Shown here piece after piece: positions 994 through 8,661 of a stretch of 8,661 nucleotides of DNA. Source of the DNA: a bacterium (GTDB lineage Bacteria > Coprothermobacterota > Coprothermobacteria > Coprothermobacterales > JAADFF01); the NCBI GenBank assembly GCA_027063755.1, contig JAMORD010000075.1, positions 1 through 8,661 on the forward strand, given 5' to 3'. The position numbers and the translations under genes were made by a program. The first letter of the stretch is position 1. Every line of letters begins with the position of its first letter. Under the pieces are notes generated by a model that was not told the origin of the DNA, did no database searches, and saw only the letters and a list, made by a program, of their open reading frames with translations.

Positions 994-1659
994 ATGTCCA
1001 AGAGGGTTTTTATTATCTCCGCTCATGCCGACGATGAAACATTAGGAATGGGAGGAACAATTTTAAAGCACATTTCTAATGGAGATAAAGTGTATTGGTT
1101 GGTTTTAACACTTCCTTGGAGTCCCAAATGGGATAAAGATTTTATAGATAGACGTGTAGCCGATATAGAAAAGGTGGCTAATGCATATCCTTTTGCAGAT
1201 TATTGGATATGGAATTTTAGAGATAACAGAATGGACGAATATCCAATGGATGAGTATCAGACCAAAATGATAGATCTAATGGAGAATATCAAACCTTCTA
1301 TTATTTATTTTCCCAATCCGTGGGATATGAATTTTGAACATAGGATGGTTACACAAATAGTAGAATTTTCTACAAAGCCACCGTATTCTCCCTATGTTGA
1401 GAAGCTTATAGCTTATGAAATACCATCGGCAACTGAATGGTCCCTCAAGTATTATGGTCAGTTTGCTCCAAATATGTGGGTAGATATAACAGAGTTTATA
1501 GATAGAAAACTTGAGATCGTATCTTTGTACTCTACCGAACTAAAGAGCTTCCCTCACTCTCGGTCAAAGGAGTATATCTTGTCTCTTGCAAAGGTGCGTG
1601 GTGGAGAGGCATTTATGGAATATGCAGAGGCATTCTGTGTGCTGAGAGAGAGGTGGTAG
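994..1659 (+). CDS. PIG-L/LmbE-family zinc-dependent N-deacetylase
   Basis: PIG-L enzymes remove the N-acetyl group from GlcNAc-type sugars or conjugates (GlcNAc-PI, MshB and BshB substrates). The protein has 221 residues, a normal length. The N-terminal AHADDE motif supplies zinc ligands His11 and Asp14 and general base Asp13 by analogy with MshB. The third ligand is probably His116 in NFEHRMV. A RGGEAFMEYAEAF segment near the C-terminus is typical of the family. No signal peptide or membrane segment is seen, so it is cytosolic. Its ATG follows the aminotransferase TAA directly, and its ribosome site (GAGGTGG, 982-988) lies inside the upstream gene, implying translational coupling. The neighbours suggest it acts on a nucleotide sugar or nonulosonate rather than on a thiol precursor or GPI. 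Family assignment is strong; the substrate is unknown. Confidence 0.92.
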   Translation: MSKRVFIISAHADDETLGMGGTILKHISNGDKVYWLVLTLPWSPKWDKDFIDRRVADIEKVANAYPFADYWIWNFRDNRMDEYPMDEYQTKMIDLMENIKPSIIYFPNPWDMNFEHRMVTQIVEFSTKPPYSPYVEKLIAYEIPSATEWSLKYYGQFAPNMWVDITEFIDRKLEIVSLYSTELKSFPHSRSKEYILSLAKVRGGEAFMEYAEAFCVLRERW

Positions 1660-1663
1660 GTGA

Positions 1664-2281
1664 ATGAAAGATATAGTGATAGTTGGGGCTGGAGAAGGGG
1701 AGATAGTCAAACTTATAGATGACATAAATGCAGAAAAGAAAGAATGGAACATAATAGGTTTTTTAGATGCTAATCCTGAGTTGTGGGGAAAGGAATTGTT
1801 AGGCTATCCCGTTTTGGGGGGAGATGATTTAGCAGAAAAGTACTCATATGCATATTTTGCTATAAATGTTTCTGCTACTCCAGAAATTAGAAGAAGGGTT
1901 TTTCAGAAATATAAAAACTCTAAAATTGCTACTTTGATTCATCCCTCGGTTAATGTAGATTATGTTGAAATTGGTGAGGGAAGTGTTGTGTACCAAGGTG
2001 CTGTTCTTGGTGAGAGAGTAAGATTAGGAGTGGGAGTCTTCTTAAACTATTCTGTTACTGTATGTCATGAAAGTGTTATTGGGTCTTATAGTATATTGGC
2101 TCCAGGTGTTATTATAGCTGGTAGGGTAAATGTGGGAGAGAATGTGTTTATAGGGCTTGGCGCACATATTCGTGATGGCATAAAATTAGGTAATTATTCT
2201 GTCATTGGTATGGGATCAGTTGTAGTTAAAGATGTACCAGATGGGGTAACAGTAGTTGGTAATCCTGCTAAACCCCAATAA
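1664..2281 (+). CDS. NeuD/PglD-type sugar O- or N-acyltransferase (left-handed beta helix)
   Basis: The family transfers acetyl from acetyl-CoA to a sugar amine or hydroxyl (PglD on UDP-4-amino sugars, NeuD on sialic acids). The protein has 205 residues, a full length for the family. Residues 1-50 form a Rossmann-like sugar-nucleotide domain with a GAGEGE loop and GFLDANPELWG. Residues ~92-200 are hexapeptide repeats of the left-handed beta helix, ending in the family-typical VVGNPAKP. His135-Glu136 in VTVCHESVIG align with the catalytic His and following Glu of Campylobacter PglD. Its ATG lies 4 bases after the deacetylase stop, with the ribosome site AGGTGG at 1651-1656 inside that gene. 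In nonulosonate clusters this gene is usually annotated neuD. Here an N-acetyltransferase role at the amine made by the upstream aminotransferase is as likely as O-acetylation. Confidence 0.92.
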   Translation: MKDIVIVGAGEGEIVKLIDDINAEKKEWNIIGFLDANPELWGKELLGYPVLGGDDLAEKYSYAYFAINVSATPEIRRRVFQKYKNSKIATLIHPSVNVDYVEIGEGSVVYQGAVLGERVRLGVGVFLNYSVTVCHESVIGSYSILAPGVIIAGRVNVGENVFIGLGAHIRDGIKLGNYSVIGMGSVVVKDVPDGVTVVGNPAKPQ

Positions 2282-2293
2282 TGTAGATAGGTT

Positions 2294-2301
2294 AGGGGGA
2301 G
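2294..2301 (+). promoter_or_regulatory. Shine-Dalgarno site of the formyltransferase gene
   Basis: The sequence AGGGGGAG lies 5 bases upstream of the ATG at 2307. It decides between this ATG and the in-frame TTG at 2256, which would overlap the acyltransferase gene and has no good site. Confidence 0.75.
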
Positions 2302-2306
2302 AGATT

Positions 2307-3209
2307 ATGTTGAGGGGAAGGGAAGTCGTAGCGTTTGTAGCTAATGATGCTGCTGAATATGCGTTTAAGGAGTTATTGGGTGATGGAGTTATCGATTATG
2401 TTATTACTATAACTCCTGAAATGTCACAAAGGGCAAAAGTTTCTAACTATCTTGATGTTTCTAAGTATAATCCTGCGAATGTGTATTATGCAAAAAAATA
2501 TTCACTAAAATCATCAGAAGATTTAGAATTTTTCTCTTCTAATATCTTTGACATTGGACTTATATTAGGATGGAATCGTTTGATCCCTTCAAAAATTATT
2601 AACACTTTTACTCATGGAATTATTGGTTTCCATGGTACTCCTTTTGGTTTACCTAAGGGAAGAGGTCGTTCTCCCGCAATATGGAGCATTGTATTGGGGT
2701 ATGATACCTATTTTTATCACGCATTTAAAGTACAACCTGGAATTGATGATGGTCCTATATATGTTACAAAGGCTATACGAATTGAATCTTATGATAATAT
2801 TCGTACTTTTTATCTTAAGTTGTCATATGTGTTAAAAGATATGGCTTTAGAGGCGATGGAAAAACTTATCAGTGGATATCAGGGTTTACCACAAGTGGGA
2901 ACTCCGATATACTTTCGCAAAAGGGATGAGAAGGATGGATACATTAGGTGGGAGTTGGGAGCATGGAGAGTTTACAATCTTGTCAGGGCTATTACCCATC
3001 CCTATCCAGGGGCATGGACATGGTATAAAGGAGAAAAAATTAGGATATGGTGGGGAGTGCCTTTTAAGGAAGCAAAGGGTGCTCCAGGAGAAGTAATAGC
3101 TGTGTTTGATGAAGGGTTTTTAGTGGGTTGTGGTGAGGATAGTTTTCTTGTTGTGGAGTATACGGGGAAAAAGCCAGAAGTTGGAGATTATTTGAATGCG
3201 AAAGTTTAG
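2307..3209 (+). CDS. Formyltransferase-family protein, probably sugar N-formyltransferase
   Basis: Members of this fold transfer formyl from N10-formyltetrahydrofolate to an amine: methionyl-tRNA in Fmt, or 4-amino sugars in ArnA, VioF and similar enzymes. The protein has 300 residues. The N-terminal catalytic domain contains GLILGWNRLIP, then GFHGTPFGLPKGRGRSP with catalytic His109, and PGIDDGPI with Asp147, which matches the conserved Asp of the Fmt triad. The Asn of the usual N-x-H motif is Gly107 here. The C-terminal part contains RKRDEKDGYIRW and VRAITHPYPGAW, close to the ArnA/sugar-formyltransferase C-subdomain. A TTG at 2256 is in frame, but the ATG at 2307 has a clear ribosome site and starts right at the Rossmann strand, so it was chosen. 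The gene is 25 bases after the acyltransferase gene and is the last of this run. An Fmt housekeeping role is unlikely given the context. Confidence 0.87.
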   Translation: MLRGREVVAFVANDAAEYAFKELLGDGVIDYVITITPEMSQRAKVSNYLDVSKYNPANVYYAKKYSLKSSEDLEFFSSNIFDIGLILGWNRLIPSKIINTFTHGIIGFHGTPFGLPKGRGRSPAIWSIVLGYDTYFYHAFKVQPGIDDGPIYVTKAIRIESYDNIRTFYLKLSYVLKDMALEAMEKLISGYQGLPQVGTPIYFRKRDEKDGYIRWELGAWRVYNLVRAITHPYPGAWTWYKGEKIRIWWGVPFKEAKGAPGEVIAVFDEGFLVGCGEDSFLVVEYTGKKPEVGDYLNAKV

Positions 3210-3237: not shown

Positions 3238-4899
3238 TTATGTGTTTGAATGGATATCCAATAGTATTTCCTGCGATATCCTGTATATTCCCCAAAAGTC
3301 TACTTTATATGAATTTTCAAATAGTTTCTGCCATAGTGCGGTGTTTTCTATGAAAGCTTTTATATTGTGAGGTTTGATATCGTTTATATGTCCTATAAAA
3401 GATGCAATACCTTCATTATCTACAGTCCGGGCATAGGGTATTTGTGTTTGCTTTAGTGCTACTATTGCAGTTGGTATACCTAAAGATATACTTTCAAAAC
3501 ATAAATTTCCGTAGGAACATATAACGGCATCAACTTGCTCTAAAACATCACATATAGAAGGTATATTCTGGTATATTGTAGATTGGTTTTTGAGTTCTTC
3601 TATAAAATCCTGCTTATATAATGGGTTTAGAAATACCATTTTTTCTATTTCAGATGGTAGCATTTCTAAGATCTTTCTTACCCAATTATTTTTTCTCCAG
3701 CCTCCACTGTATATCAGAACTTTCTTTATCTGAGAAGGGGGAGATGTTCTAATATGGCAATATCTTGTTTCGTTAGATATGGGAAGATATGGCATAACCT
3801 TGTTTGAAACAGGTATAAAATATCTGTCAAAGAGATGTTTTTCTTTGATATTTCCTCCGCTAACATAGTAAACTCTATTAGCGATTTGTCTTAGTTTACG
3901 GATTGTTTGTGGGTTGATATACTCAAAATTATATGGATCTTCTGTTACATCATATATGGCTCCATCAAACCTTGTCTCTGGGGATAGTTTATCTGTAATA
4001 TGGAATCCCTTCTTCTCTATTTGTGCCTGTGCTCGCTTATCAAATATGCCGGTCCATGTAATATTGCTAACTTTTTCTTGTAGATATGATGCAAGCTCAA
4101 GTTCTCTTTTTATGTGTCCAAAGCCTATATCGCTCGTACCGCCTGTATATATTAAAATCTTGGTTTTATTCATAGGAGCATATACTGAGGGAAAAGGGGT
4201 ATGTAATCTTGAAAGTTGTTTGGGTATATAACTGTGTTTGTCTAAAAAAGATACGATTTCGTTGTAAGTTGCCTCTGTTCCTAAACCGCTACTGGTGAGT
4301 TTCCTGATAGATTCTAGGTCTTCCTTGTAATCTACTGTTAGAAAGTATAGTCTGTTGGGATTAGCTCTTACATAGACAGTTTTATACTTTTCCGGATGTC
4401 TTTTTATGTAGGGAGTTACATGTTCCCTATCGCTGTCTCGTGTTGCATTTTTTGATGCATCTTTGAGTGTTTTGTATGATATACCTTCAACACTTGTGCC
4501 TGGAAAGTAGCCATAATACCAACCAGTTACAACATAATCGTATTCATTTTCAAGATATTGAATACTGTCTCTAATGGATTCCAGCGTAGTGAAAGGGTTG
4601 TCTGCGGTTACCCTTATTACACCATCTAGTTCAAACTGCTCGGCAGCACTGATGTATCTGCCAAGTACATCGTTTAAACTACCTCTATACACTAATGCAC
4701 CAAAGGATTGGGCAATGTCTTCTACCTTGTTGTCGTCTTCTTGCGTACTTGTGGCTACAATAATAGGTATATTCACTGGTTTTAATCTCTTTATTAAGAA
4801 ACCCAGCAGTGGGGTTTCGTTGTCATCTATGGGTAAGGAAACTTTGCCGGGGAGCCTGCTTGAGCTCATGCGTGCTTGTATAATAATGCCTATTTTCAT
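3238..4899 (-). CDS. Fusion protein: SpsF-type nucleotidylyltransferase + PseG-like domain
   Basis: The protein has 553 residues in two parts. Residues 1-~225 are an SpsF/CMP-KDO-synthetase-like nucleotidylyltransferase: IIIQARMSSSRLPGKV at the N-terminus, RVTADNPF (~96-103) at the metal-binding position, and SDREHVTPYIKRHPE followed by LTVD. Residues ~245-553 resemble PseG, the UDP-diacetamido-trideoxyaltrose hydrolase with a GT-B/MurG-like fold: YTGGTSDIGFGHIKRELELA carries the G-H-x-x-R signature (His262, Arg265), and SYGNLCFESISLGIP (462-476) matches the C-terminal sugar-nucleotide site. In the pseudaminate pathway PseG frees the sugar from UDP, NeuB-type PseI condenses it with PEP, and PseF adds CMP. 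This fusion could supply the two flanking steps, but that is inferred. It overlaps neuB by ATGA and has a GGGAGG site, which fixes the start at 4899 instead of the ATG at 4914. An alternative is a glycosyltransferase role for the C-terminal half. Confidence 0.85.
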   Translation of the reverse strand: MKIGIIIQARMSSSRLPGKVSLPIDDNETPLLGFLIKRLKPVNIPIIVATSTQEDDNKVEDIAQSFGALVYRGSLNDVLGRYISAAEQFELDGVIRVTADNPFTTLESIRDSIQYLENEYDYVVTGWYYGYFPGTSVEGISYKTLKDASKNATRDSDREHVTPYIKRHPEKYKTVYVRANPNRLYFLTVDYKEDLESIRKLTSSGLGTEATYNEIVSFLDKHSYIPKQLSRLHTPFPSVYAPMNKTKILIYTGGTSDIGFGHIKRELELASYLQEKVSNITWTGIFDKRAQAQIEKKGFHITDKLSPETRFDGAIYDVTEDPYNFEYINPQTIRKLRQIANRVYYVSGGNIKEKHLFDRYFIPVSNKVMPYLPISNETRYCHIRTSPPSQIKKVLIYSGGWRKNNWVRKILEMLPSEIEKMVFLNPLYKQDFIEELKNQSTIYQNIPSICDVLEQVDAVICSYGNLCFESISLGIPTAIVALKQTQIPYARTVDNEGIASFIGHINDIKPHNIKAFIENTALWQKLFENSYKVDFWGIYRISQEILLDIHSNT

Positions 4900-5918
4900 A
4901 GCAAATCCTCCCATTGTAGAATGTGCTCATGGGGTACATCTACTTTTAGTGTTCTTCCTATGACATGTTTTACTTCATATGGTGGTATGCCGGTGCCAGG
5001 TCTCTTTAGAGTAATATCTTCCTCTTTTATGACTTCTCCTGCTTTCATATTTCTGTTTATAACGACACTTCTTCGGGCTACTTTGCCTACTTCTATTTCC
5101 TCTTTGCTTAACACTTTCCATGTTTGACCTAATGCAGACCATATCTCATCTGCTGCTTGTCTGAGTATTTTTAATTCGCTAGGGTCCATTGATACTTTTT
5201 GATCTGGTCCTGGTAGATTTTTATCAATAGTAAAGTGTTTTTCTATGATTTGTGCTCCCATAGTGATGGCAGCTATAGGTACATGAATACCTATAGTATG
5301 ATCCGAGTATCCTATAGGAATATGGGGATACATTCTCTTTAAAGTTTCTATGCTCCTCAAATGCACTTTATCTACTGTTGGTGGATAGAGTGATACACAG
5401 TACAACAATGCAATAGGAATATTGAAATCAATAAGACTTTCTATGGCTATATCTATCTCCTTTATTGTGGACATACCAACAGAGAGTATAAGAGGTTTCC
5501 CTTTTTGAGCTATATACCTAATGAATGGTGGATTGCTAAGATCCATACTTGCAATTTTGTAGCCTTTAACATTTAGTTTTGCTAAAAGATCTACATCTTT
5601 TGGGGAGAAAGGAGTGGATAGGAACATTATTCCTTTTTGGTCAGCATGTTCTTTCAGTTCAAACCATTCTTCTTCTGAAAATTCTAATGATTTTAAATCT
5701 TCAAACAGGGTGTTTCTATTCCACCCTTTTTTTGATTTGGCAAAATCCTCTACATAAAACTCTTCAACTGTGAATGTCTGAAATTTGACTATATCAGCAC
5801 CATTTTCTACAGCGGCGTCTATCATTTCTTTAGCCAAAGCAAGGTTTCCATTGTGGTTTATACCTACTTCTGCTATGATAATGGGCTTCTGGTCAATATT
5901 GAAGCCTAAAAAGTTCAT
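4896..5918 (-). CDS. neuB: NeuB-family nonulosonate synthase (LegI/NeuB-like, PEP-condensing)
   Basis: NeuB enzymes condense phosphoenolpyruvate with a six-carbon N-acetylamino sugar (ManNAc or its 2,4-diacetamido-6-deoxy analogues) to give a nine-carbon 2-keto acid in the cytosol. The protein has 340 residues, standard length. The TIM barrel shows AEVGINHNGN (16-25), VKFQTF, FLSTPF, LLYCVSLYPP and GYSDHT. His207 (SDHT) and His228 (EKHFT) match the two metal-binding histidines of meningococcal NeuB. A C-terminal SAF/antifreeze-like domain (~275-340) carries KRPGTGIP. FQTF, FLSTPF and CVSLYP look nearer to LegI/NeuB than to PseI, by memory of these families. The start at 5918 has a strong ribosome site; an in-frame upstream ATG at 6032 would overlap the divergent gene and adds non-family sequence. 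Product could be legionaminic, sialic or a related acid. Confidence 0.95.
   Translation of the reverse strand: MNFLGFNIDQKPIIIAEVGINHNGNLALAKEMIDAAVENGADIVKFQTFTVEEFYVEDFAKSKKGWNRNTLFEDLKSLEFSEEEWFELKEHADQKGIMFLSTPFSPKDVDLLAKLNVKGYKIASMDLSNPPFIRYIAQKGKPLILSVGMSTIKEIDIAIESLIDFNIPIALLYCVSLYPPTVDKVHLRSIETLKRMYPHIPIGYSDHTIGIHVPIAAITMGAQIIEKHFTIDKNLPGPDQKVSMDPSELKILRQAADEIWSALGQTWKVLSKEEIEVGKVARRSVVINRNMKAGEVIKEEDITLKRPGTGIPPYEVKHVIGRTLKVDVPHEHILQWEDLL
4905..4912 (-). promoter_or_regulatory. Shine-Dalgarno site of the SpsF-PseG fusion gene
   Basis: On the minus strand GGGAGGAT ends 5 bases before the ATG at 4899, with 7 bases between the GGAGG core and the ATG. It lies inside the neuB 3' end. The ATG at 4914 would leave this site within the coding region. 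Confidence 0.8.
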
Positions 5919-5983: not shown

Positions 5984-7036
5984 ATGGATGGGGGCTTAGA
6001 GATACATGGGAATTTGAATATTCGTGGAGCAATAGACAAACTCAATACCACTGGCAAGAAAATCCTCCTTGTTGTAGATGATGAAAACCGGCTTATCGGT
6101 ACTATTACAGATGGTGATATAAGGAGGGCTATACTCAGGGGAATATCGCTTGATGATACGGTAGACAAGGTTATGAATACATCTCCTAAGGTGCTTAAGT
6201 ATCCGTGGAACAAAAAGGATGCCTTGCGTTTGTTTAGAAAGCATGGTATATCCCGTATTCCTGTTGTTGATGATGAAGGAAGGGTTATAGACTTGTTGTT
6301 TTTAGAGGACTTTGTTGATGGGGAAGAGTCTAAAGAGAAGATAGATATTCCTGTTGTGATTATGGCCGGTGGCAAGGGAACAAGGCTTGATCCATTTACC
6401 AAGATTTTGCCCAAGCCTCTTATTCCTGTTGGAGATAAACCTATCTTGCAGATTATTATGGATAGATTTTACAAGCAGGGTTTTAGTAGGTTTATTCTTA
6501 CTCTTGGATATAAGGCAGAGATTATAAAGTTGTGGGTAGACGATGCGGATCTTCCTTATGATGTGAAATGGGTAGTAGAAGATAAACCTCTTGGAACTGC
6601 TGGTAGCCTAAGGCAGGTTGTAGAAGAGTTTGGTTTGAAGGGAAGTTTTATAGTATCTAATTGTGATATTTTAGTAGATGTTGATTTTACCAAAGCTGTT
6701 GAGTTTCACCAGAAACATGAGGCAGATGCCACGATTATTGGTTATCTCTTGCAAAATCGTTTGCCATATGGGGTTATTGAAACAGATGGTCCTTATTTTA
6801 CCGGTATGAGAGAGAAACCGTATATAGATTCTCTTATAAATACTGGTATTTATGTTGTCAATGCAGAGACTGTTTATAGACATATTGAAAAAGATGAAAC
6901 GGTAGATATGCCGGAGGTACTTGATAGGATAAGAGAAAATGGGGGAAAGGTGGCAGTTTACCCCCATCATGGAGAGTTCTTTGATGTCGGTCAGTGGGAA
7001 TTTTACAAAGAAACTTTGCGTAAATTGGGTTACTGA
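5984..7036 (+). CDS. ptmE: CBS-domain sugar-phosphate nucleotidyltransferase (PtmE/LegE-like)
   Basis: The family makes an NDP-sugar from a sugar 1-phosphate. Campylobacter PtmE, with the same layout, makes GDP-GlcN from GlcN-1-P to start the legionaminic acid pathway. The protein has 350 residues. Residues ~8-112 are a tandem CBS pair (VVDDENRLIGTITDGDIRR, then HGISRIPVVDDEGRVIDLL). Residues ~122-350 are the nucleotidyltransferase: IMAGGKGTRLDPFTKILPKP with the signature GGxGTRL, VEDKPLGTAGSL, SNCDILVD with the metal Asp, NTGIYVV, and EFFDVGQWEFY at the end. CBS pairs often bind adenine nucleotides, so allosteric control is possible. A TGA directly precedes the ATG in frame, and AAGGGGTTGAT (5966-5976) is the ribosome site. 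It diverges from neuB and ends one base from the GT2 stop. The nucleotide (GTP, UTP, CTP) cannot be decided here. Symbol by resemblance. Confidence 0.9.
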   Translation: MDGGLEIHGNLNIRGAIDKLNTTGKKILLVVDDENRLIGTITDGDIRRAILRGISLDDTVDKVMNTSPKVLKYPWNKKDALRLFRKHGISRIPVVDDEGRVIDLLFLEDFVDGEESKEKIDIPVVIMAGGKGTRLDPFTKILPKPLIPVGDKPILQIIMDRFYKQGFSRFILTLGYKAEIIKLWVDDADLPYDVKWVVEDKPLGTAGSLRQVVEEFGLKGSFIVSNCDILVDVDFTKAVEFHQKHEADATIIGYLLQNRLPYGVIETDGPYFTGMREKPYIDSLINTGIYVVNAETVYRHIEKDETVDMPEVLDRIRENGGKVAVYPHHGEFFDVGQWEFYKETLRKLGY

Positions 7037-7037
7037 T

Positions 7038-8270
7038 CTAAAACCTTGCCGTCTTCTCCCACTGTATAGCCTCTTTGCCCTGGCGCAAAGAGGCTTTTAT
7101 TTTTATCTGGGCGTTTATGAGTATAAGTAGCCACAGCTGAGCGTAGGTAAAGTACATGAGCATGGCGGCAAGCACATTAGATACTGAGACCTCTTTTTCT
7201 AAGAAGGCACCTGCTATGATTTGGGTTACATATATCCAATATGATTCAAACCAGAGTGTTATCAGTGGTATGCCGGCTCCCACAGAGAAGAAGCCGATAA
7301 GGCCCATAACAAACCATACATCTGAGAGCAAGACAAGGGCGATAAATGCATAGTAGATAGACAGTAGTTGCATGGCATTGATAAGGTTTTTCCCTGTTCT
7401 GTAGTGTTTGTTCTGCAGTGTTTTATCAATAAGGTATAGGTTTCCCATCATCCACCGTGTGCGTTGTTTCCACCACACTTTTAGTGTTTCCGGTTCTTGT
7501 TCCCATGTGGTGCTACGGGGTTCTACAGGTATGAGGTATCCTTTGGCCGTGATATTCAGTGTTATTTCGGCATCTTCGGCAAGGGCGTTATCGTCCCATC
7601 CCCCTATTTCGTCAAGCACAGAGCGTCTTATAAGCATGTTGGTGCCGGTAAAAGAGCCCAATTTAAAGAGTTTCCACCTGCCAAGCTGCATGATGAGCTG
7701 AAAGAGTAGTATTTCAAGTCCTATCATGCGTGTCAGTAGGTTTTTGTGCATGTTATAAGACCGATAGTAGCCTACAGCACCGGCATGTTTGTCGTCTTCC
7801 AGTGTTTTCATGACAAGATACTTGATAGCATCTTTATCTGGTATGTTGTCGGCATCGTATACGACAACCATATCACCATGGGAGATAGATAGGCCGTAGT
7901 TAAGCACACGGGCTTTGCCTTTAGGTTTGCCATCGGGCACCGTTATGTGGTGTATGTTATCAAAGGTCTTATCAAAGTAGTCTGCTATTTCTGCTGTTTC
8001 ATCTGTGCTACCATCGTTGAGAAGGTATATATTTAGTTGGCCGGGATATTCGGTCAGTGCAAGGGCGTTGAGTGTGGAAAAGATAACTTTCCCTTCGTTG
8101 TATGCGGGCACAAAGACATCTACAGATGGCCACTGTGTGGGTTCTTGAGGTTTTTTGGTTAAAGTTTCTATCCTATAAAACATACCGGCTATGGCAAGCA
8201 CAGAGTAATAGAGTAGAAAAACCCAAAAGATAGCAACTATGACGAGAAATATAGTATTGGCGATATTCAT
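7038..8270 (-). CDS. Membrane GT2 glycosyltransferase, cellulose/poly-GlcNAc synthase type
   Basis: Processive GT2 enzymes polymerise NDP-sugars and move the chain across the cytoplasmic membrane. The protein has 410 residues. An N-terminal membrane segment (~5-31) is followed by the GT2 domain: VDVFVPAYNEG (50-60), LLNDGSTDE, YDADN with the DxD aspartates 139 and 141, GSFTGTNMLIRRS, AEDAE with the likely catalytic base Asp233, and QRTRW (269-273) matching the Q-x-x-R-W acceptor motif. At least three further hydrophobic segments lie at ~300-345 and ~365-388. The stop is one base from the convergent nucleotidyltransferase stop. The start overlaps the upstream GGDEF-like gene as TAATG, with AGGAG at 8279-8283, 8 bases before the ATG. 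Its closest functional parallel is YdaM of B. subtilis or PgaC/IcaA; product and sugar are unknown. No PilZ domain is present. Confidence 0.93.
   Translation of the reverse strand: MNIANTIFLVIVAIFWVFLLYYSVLAIAGMFYRIETLTKKPQEPTQWPSVDVFVPAYNEGKVIFSTLNALALTEYPGQLNIYLLNDGSTDETAEIADYFDKTFDNIHHITVPDGKPKGKARVLNYGLSISHGDMVVVYDADNIPDKDAIKYLVMKTLEDDKHAGAVGYYRSYNMHKNLLTRMIGLEILLFQLIMQLGRWKLFKLGSFTGTNMLIRRSVLDEIGGWDDNALAEDAEITLNITAKGYLIPVEPRSTTWEQEPETLKVWWKQRTRWMMGNLYLIDKTLQNKHYRTGKNLINAMQLLSIYYAFIALVLLSDVWFVMGLIGFFSVGAGIPLITLWFESYWIYVTQIIAGAFLEKEVSVSNVLAAMLMYFTYAQLWLLILINAQIKIKASLRQGKEAIQWEKTARF
7068..7105 (+). terminator. Intrinsic terminator for the CBS-nucleotidyltransferase transcript
   Basis: A perfect 11-bp stem (AGCCTCTTTGC at 7068-7078, GCAAAGAGGCT at 7085-7095) with a 6-base loop is followed by a T-rich tract TTTTATTTTTAT. 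It lies 31 bases after the TGA at 7036. On the minus strand no T tract follows the stem, so it acts in the + direction only. The whole element lies within the 3' coding end of the GT2 gene. Confidence 0.88.
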
Positions 8271-8656
8271 TATATTGTCTCCTGAGCTGGTAGAAGTGAG
8301 AGGTTTGTTTCAAAATCATGGGTTATAGAGGTTGTTGTTATATTCATGTTCTGAGATATAAAGTGGCCATTTATATGTTTGGCTGACAACACCTTTTTTT
8401 TGATTCTGTCTATTACAATCTGAGCATGTTCTGTATCCGTGCCTTGCAGGAGCACAAAGAATGTGTTACCATCTCGCCCAACAATGTCATAGCCCAGTCT
8501 AATAGATGATAATATGATGTTTCCTACTTCACGCAATACTTTGTCAGGTACTTTATCTGATAGCCCTTTTATAGTGATTCTTATAAGTGTTCCTGGTTCG
8601 TTTCGCCTTGACAATGCCCTTGTGATATAAAACATCTCGTCTTTAAATTCCGACAT
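8270..8656 (-). CDS. Degenerate GGDEF-domain protein, possible regulator of the adjacent GT2
   Basis: The 128 visible residues align to the C-terminal two thirds of a GGDEF domain: GTLIRITIKGL (~22-32), VLREVGNIILSSIRLGYDIVG, then RDGNTFFVLLQGTDTEHAQIVIDRIKKKV. The GGDEF signature is replaced by GNTFF (63-67), so the catalytic and metal residues are lost and diguanylate cyclase activity is not expected. The usual RxxD inhibitory site is also off: Asp57 is at the right place but Arg53 is one residue too far. The normal N-terminal LTGLPNR region is missing. The ATG at 8656 is only five bases from the window edge, no in-frame stop is visible upstream, and the ribosome site cannot be seen, so the gene may be longer. 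It is coupled to the GT2 gene by a TAATG overlap, suggesting that the two products work together, as YdaK and YdaM do. Confidence 0.75.
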   Translation of the reverse strand: MSEFKDEMFYITRALSRRNEPGTLIRITIKGLSDKVPDKVLREVGNIILSSIRLGYDIVGRDGNTFFVLLQGTDTEHAQIVIDRIKKKVLSAKHINGHFISQNMNITTTSITHDFETNLSLLPAQETI

Positions 8657-8661
8657 GGTTA

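Follow-up and report, generated by a model that had tools for sequence, protein, structure and literature searches.

In the standard nonulosonate pathways the acetyl group on C2 is kept and becomes the N5 substituent, and the amine at C4 is acylated and becomes N7. What chiefly distinguishes one nonulosonate from another is the acylation of N5 and N7, and on it depends how the surface appears to immune systems, phages and partner cells. Since N5 inherits the acetyl group of GlcNAc, a non-acetyl group at N5 needs an acetyl-removing step, and N7 can be varied by changing the C4 acyltransferase; no assignment for the acetyl-removing step was found in the open-access literature searched. The presumed target of PseJ-type formyltransferases is the C4 amine.

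5-N-formyl-legionaminate has been reported from Halorubrum sp. PV6, whose cluster contains a predicted formyltransferase, NeuD and NeuB (PMC6137143). A 5-N-formyl group means that the C2 acetyl must be lost, if the route begins from NDP-GlcNAc. The cluster resembles our locus in these three genes and in its aminotransferase and NeuA, but it has a NeuC-type hydrolase, no deacetylase is named, and the gene separating neuD from neuB is left without a description (PMC6137143). By analogy we regard the cluster, with its predicted formyltransferase, as a partial chemical precedent. PseJ-type formyltransferases (PDB 6ci4) and the formyltransferases (Fmts) of nonulosonate loci free of PIG-L have in common with our locus the formyltransferase fold and the nonulosonate pathway; unlike it, they have no deacetylase nearby, and they keep the catalytic Asn in the loci examined. 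In the Aeromonas flagellar Pse islands IE and IF, a "deacetylase" gene lies between pseH and pseI or between pseF and pseG (PMC7874193). Compared with our locus, this is a deacetylase by annotation only, with no function proposed, and its neighbor is called "glucuronic acid dehydrogenase" (PMC7874193), possibly an annotation of an ArnA-like protein. No paper linking PIG-L/LmbE to pseudaminate or legionaminate synthesis was found in the open-access literature, outside which most subscription journals lie. Known enzyme families make up the module described below; the module itself, its exchangeable acyltransferase and the clades of Fmt-like proteins without Asn appear to be undescribed in the open-access literature searched.

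Gene content of the locus

The window, that is the whole stretch of DNA analyzed, is an entire contig (C75) of 8,661 bases from a 1.5 Mb assembly in 251 contigs, 88% complete, of a member of a small phylum that was represented by nine genomes in the collection used. It carries the following genes:

1 to 993, + strand: DegT-family aminotransferase, 5' end lost at the contig edge (Pfam PF01041, 352 bits)
994 to 1659, + strand: PIG-L de-N-acetylase (Pfam PF02585, 73.2 bits, gathering score 28.2)
1664 to 2281, + strand: NeuD/PglD/VioB left-handed beta-helix N-acetyltransferase (TIGR03570, 181.6 bits, cut-off 160.8)
2307 to 3209, + strand: ArnA/Fmt-fold acyltransferase-like protein (Pfam PF00551, Formyl_trans_N, and PF02911, Formyl_trans_C, both above the Pfam cut-offs)
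3238 to 4914, - strand: fusion of a NeuA/PseF-like CMP-nonulosonate synthetase (Pfam PF02348, residues 5-201) and a PseG-like nucleotide-sugar hydrolase (NCBIfam PseG match, residues 381-487)
4896 to 5918, - strand: NeuB nonulosonate synthase with SAF domain (Pfam PF03102, 274.7 bits; SAF)
5984 to 7036, + strand: PtmE-like CBS-nucleotidyltransferase (CBS and NTP_transferase domains)

A first-pass annotation, made from the sequence alone, had described the first four genes as a tightly coupled run beside neuB. Pfam and NCBIfam confirmed each gene that it had named, in place and on the + strand, and the run is tight, with gaps of 0, 4 and 25 bases between DegT, PIG-L, NeuD and the Fmt-like gene and the ATG of PIG-L immediately after the DegT stop. 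The neuB gene does neighbor the run, but it is convergent (4896-5918, - strand) and lies outside it: the four + strand genes stop at 3209, where the NeuA-PseG gene on the opposite strand ends too.

The remainder of the window (7038-8659) encodes a short GGDEF-family protein, seemingly without the GGDEF motif and perhaps a regulator of the polymerase, and after it a PgaC-like GT2 glycosyltransferase. The same genome has a second nonulosonate locus on contig C153 (L131:1-4475) with NeuB, an SDR, a Gfo/Idh oxidoreductase, NeuA and a PtmE copy; its NeuB is 48% identical and its PtmE 95% identical to those of the window.

Recurrence of the PIG-L and Fmt-like gene pair

An alignment of PIG-L proteins was used to scan GTDB genomes for relatives, yielding 80 loci in named genomes; a scan with the single sequence gave no matches. 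We then called ORFs at each locus and assigned families by phmmer, taking 8 kb as the neighborhood. A neuB gene was located within 8 kb in 53 of the 80 loci, 37 of which also carried an Fmt-like gene, and in 26 of these 37 a NeuD or a PseH-like GNAT was present as well. In 39 of the 80 loci the Fmt-like gene and PIG-L were adjacent, no more than 60 bases apart, always on the same strand and mostly with a 4-base overlap. For 28 of these 39 adjacent pairs neuB was nearby, representing at least 9 phyla of bacteria and archaea (Pseudomonadota, Bacillota, Cyanobacteriota, Woesearchaeota, Myxococcota, Planctomycetota, Acidobacteriota, Bacteroidota and Thermodesulfobacteriota). Two operons recurred: LegB-LegC-NeuC-Fmt-PIGL-NeuB-NeuD-PtmE-NeuA (e.g. 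L061, L070, L127) and PseB-PseC-PseF-PseG-GNAT-Fmt-PIGL-NeuB (e.g. L085, L103, L124).

As a control, 79 loci were sampled by NeuB, independently of PIG-L. Both genes were present in 5, PIG-L only in 7, Fmt only in 4 and neither in 63, a co-occurrence above expectation (Fisher p=0.003, approximate since related loci are counted as independent). The module is thus a minority feature of nonulosonate loci, yet PIG-L and Fmt go together, and their association is far above chance. Of the gene order beside neuB for which the first-pass annotation had proposed a genome search, the deacetylase and Fmt-like pair recurs, often translationally coupled, in nonulosonate clusters of many phyla. Wide occurrence of the run away from neuB, which that annotation would have taken as contrary evidence, is seen in part, for the two-gene pair: 13 of the 27 PIG-L loci free of neuB have an Fmt-like gene, and away from neuB the pair is found with a sugar transferase and an aminotransferase as neighbors. 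Since the pair is found without neuB too, it would be a general amino-sugar exchange cassette, not private to nonulosonates. One such run, sugar transferase-Fmt-PIG-L-DegT in Leisingera and Roseibium, is like the window in its adjacent Fmt-like and PIG-L genes, in the DegT beside them and in having Gly for Asn, but it has no neuB and an exopolysaccharide setting.

Among haloarchaea, Halorussus caseinilyticus has neuB-PIG-L-neuC plus formyltransferase genes, and the Haladaptatus cluster L239 has neuB-neuC-neuD with no annotated PIG-L. A search with the Halorussus PIG-L among the relatives of two archaeal genomes and in plasmids found no Halorubrum cluster. Small archaeal genomes commonly carry relatives of the Halorussus PIG-L (L214-L238), as do 22 of the 240 relatives of one Woesearchaeote. 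On Priestia plasmids (L039:12001-16199), near spore coat genes, a glycosyltransferase gene and one annotated as carbamoyl-phosphate synthase come after a PIG-L relative.

Predicted deacetylase and acyltransferases

The PIG-L catalytic residues H11, D13, D14 and H116 are intact in the window protein and invariant among 22 relatives; in its HPDD motif the usual Pro is Ala. For its AF2 model (pLDDT 92.6), the top fold matches had Z scores of 25.3 (BshB) and 24 (diacetylchitobiose deacetylases). We propose that it removes the C2 N-acetyl group. NeuD has Hexapep repeats, and its closest solved structures are VioB and a pilin glycosylation acetyltransferase, with the catalytic His aligned; we propose it as the C4 N-acetyltransferase.

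The Fmt-like protein, the proposed C2 N-acylating enzyme, was modeled with a pLDDT of 90.8 and matched the ArnA formyltransferase domain over 282 residues (Z 28.6). It is like this N-terminal domain of ArnA over its full length, C-terminal domain included, and aligned to ArnA and relatives it retains the His and Asp of the Asn-His-Asp triad (H109, D147); unlike ArnA, it has Gly107 in place of the Asn, so that the triad is incomplete, and a nonulosonate substrate context. Across 89 Fmt-like proteins, the Asn is kept in housekeeping Fmts and in the Fmts of nonulosonate loci without PIG-L, whereas nearly all PIG-L-linked proteins are without it, having Gly in the Leg-type clade and the window and Cys, Val, Ile or Leu in the Pse-type clade. 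Where a locus has both kinds, the Asn-bearing one is an extra copy. The NeuB-sampled loci agree, with an Asn-less Fmt in 5/5 that have PIG-L and only Asn-bearing Fmts in 4/4 without PIG-L within 8 kb. The state of this residue changes only about twice on the Fmt tree, giving too few independent pairs for a contrast with PIG-L linkage, and the link between Asn loss and PIG-L is therefore mostly a clade-level correlation.

With the catalytic Asn absent, formyl transfer from 10-formyl-THF is not assured. To judge by fold and precedent, formyl is nonetheless the likeliest identity of the new acyl group, and a probable one. The Pse-type PIG-L-linked Fmt family (L124:7307-8005) is matched, with an E-value of 3.6e-65, by PDB 1ZGH from C. 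thermocellum, whose name, methionyl-tRNA formyltransferase, is on this similarity probably wrong. A further Asn-less Fmt-like family with the motif VVHES.LPxGRGW, partly fused to PseG, was seen in L091, L117, L079, L112, L114 and L157.

Other candidate acyltransferases in the position of the Fmt-like gene

Among 78 nonulosonate loci with PIG-L, we counted an Fmt-like gene in 48, a GNAT in 7, a WbqC in 12 and none of the three in 13, the last count being one that speaks against the module reading. Fmt-like genes almost never shared a locus with GNAT or WbqC (2 of the 78 loci, p=2e-7 with related loci counted as independent), and we take these enzymes to be alternatives for a single acylation step. 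In loci with PIG-L and no Fmt, the GNAT, of 315 residues and unlike PseH, lies just before NeuC in L055, L063, L065, L084, L095 and L116, and by NeuC also in L037. WbqC is beside PIG-L without an Fmt-like gene in L051, L060, L067, L120, L184, L208, L041 and L043 (L051 is probably the same locus as L161), and WbqC loci often have PseA/HisH/HisF amidotransferase genes. In L125, with PIG-L and no Fmt, a hexapeptide acyltransferase takes the slot. We put forward only tentatively, as a possibility we would not bet on, that bacterial and archaeal nonulosonate clusters hold a modular N-acyl exchange cassette, in which PIG-L is combined with an interchangeable Asn-less Fmt-like protein, 315-residue GNAT or WbqC, the Asn-less Fmt-like proteins being a distinct class with altered chemistry or donor.

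Remaining pathway genes and the type of sugar

The best NCBIfam match of DegT was PseC (306 bits, under its cut-off of 423.5; LegC, 241), and most of its nearest relatives are PseC-like genes in clusters of the Pse type (L157, L118, L117, L124), making it by similarity a predicted, PseC-like C4 aminotransferase of the pathway. The nearest relatives of the NeuA part of the fusion are in L169, L040 and L137. The hydrolase has a PseG-like domain rather than a NeuC-type hydrolase/epimerase; B. subtilis makes legionaminate using the SpsG enzyme (PMC7439481). In the NeuB tree, the window protein falls in neither the NeuC-linked nor the PseI clade but in a third. PtmE-like genes occur in most Leg-type clusters with PIG-L, and the PtmE-like CBS-nucleotidyltransferase probably makes the NDP-hexosamine precursor. 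Neither the single PseB query, for the dehydratase, nor the LegB query found a match in the genome, which is 88% complete and whose contig is cut upstream of the run. The signals are thus mixed, DegT and NeuA resembling PseC and PseF and the hydrolase PseG, as against a PtmE typical of Leg clusters. With NeuB in a third clade besides, legionaminate specificity of the run was not borne out.

Proposed pathway and alternatives

A deacetylase with two acyltransferases is a gene set for altering N5 while N7 is still acylated. We think it fairly likely that the run is an N-acyl exchange module within the nonulosonate pathway, in which the C2 acetyl is taken off, a one-carbon acyl, most likely formyl, is put on, and NeuD acetylates C4. 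The substrate of PIG-L would be an NDP-2-acetamido-trideoxyhexose, or the hexose once freed, from which it would strip the C2 N-acetyl; the new one-carbon group would be added to the exposed amine by the ArnA-fold enzyme, and NeuD would acetylate the C4 amine that the aminotransferase had made. After hydrolysis by the PseG-like domain, condensation by NeuB and activation by NeuA, the product would be a CMP-nonulosonate with different acyl groups at N5 and N7, most likely 5-N-formyl-7-N-acetyl. We infer what the substrate is, where on the sugar it is changed (C2/C5), in what order the steps follow and which acyl group is new; exchange would most likely be at the amine on C2, a position that ends up as C5 of the nonulosonate. 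The acyl swap suggested at first pass holds up well as an exchange, because the PIG-L and Fmt-like pair recurs and co-occurs in NeuB-sampled loci, with an acetyltransferase usually present; its formyl part is less secure, the PIG-L-linked Fmt-like proteins being without the catalytic Asn.

An unlikely alternative has the Fmt-like enzyme formylating the C4 amine to give a 7-N-formyl group, as PseJ would, with PIG-L and NeuD serving another step (a free amine, O-acetylation). Enzymes of the PseJ type do exist, and Fmts are found in nonulosonate clusters without PIG-L (L137, L147, L179), where deacetylation is unneeded. Yet those without PIG-L within 8 kb retain the Asn and form a separate clade, L082, L096, L097, L107, L176 and L193 have both kinds of Fmt, suggesting two positions, and a C4-type acetyltransferase is already present in the 26 loci counted above. 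Improbable too is that the exchange is real and the Fmt-like enzyme moves a non-formyl group from a donor other than 10-formyl-THF. Replacement of the Asn with His and Asp kept is consistent with this, as is the filling of the Fmt slot elsewhere by unrelated acyltransferases, but fold and C-terminal domain are ArnA-like over the full length, and the sole chemically characterized possible precedent is formyl (PMC6137143).

We give very little credence to a PIG-L that acts on a substrate unrelated to nonulosonates, such as a bacillithiol precursor or lipid-linked GlcNAc, and lies here by chance. The family is broad, BshB is the nearest fold, and there is some weak similarity to BshB1; the NCBIfam score, however, is 49.1 bits against an equivalog cut-off of 182.5, and BshC was not found in the 88%-complete genome by a search that was positive in a B. 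subtilis control. A bacillithiol role was rejected on these grounds, which disfavors the objection, raised at first pass, that the deacetylase might serve only such a substrate. The repeated coupling of PIG-L with nonulosonate genes in many phyla also argues against a chance location.

Implications

The N-acyl exchange module may account for the different groups that microbes place on the nitrogens of their sialic-acid-like surface sugars. A conserved deacetylase with an exchangeable acyltransferase is a testable answer to how the acetyl group at N5 is replaced, WbqC and the uncharacterized GNAT are candidates for the same acylation job, and genome sequences could predict the chemistry at N5.
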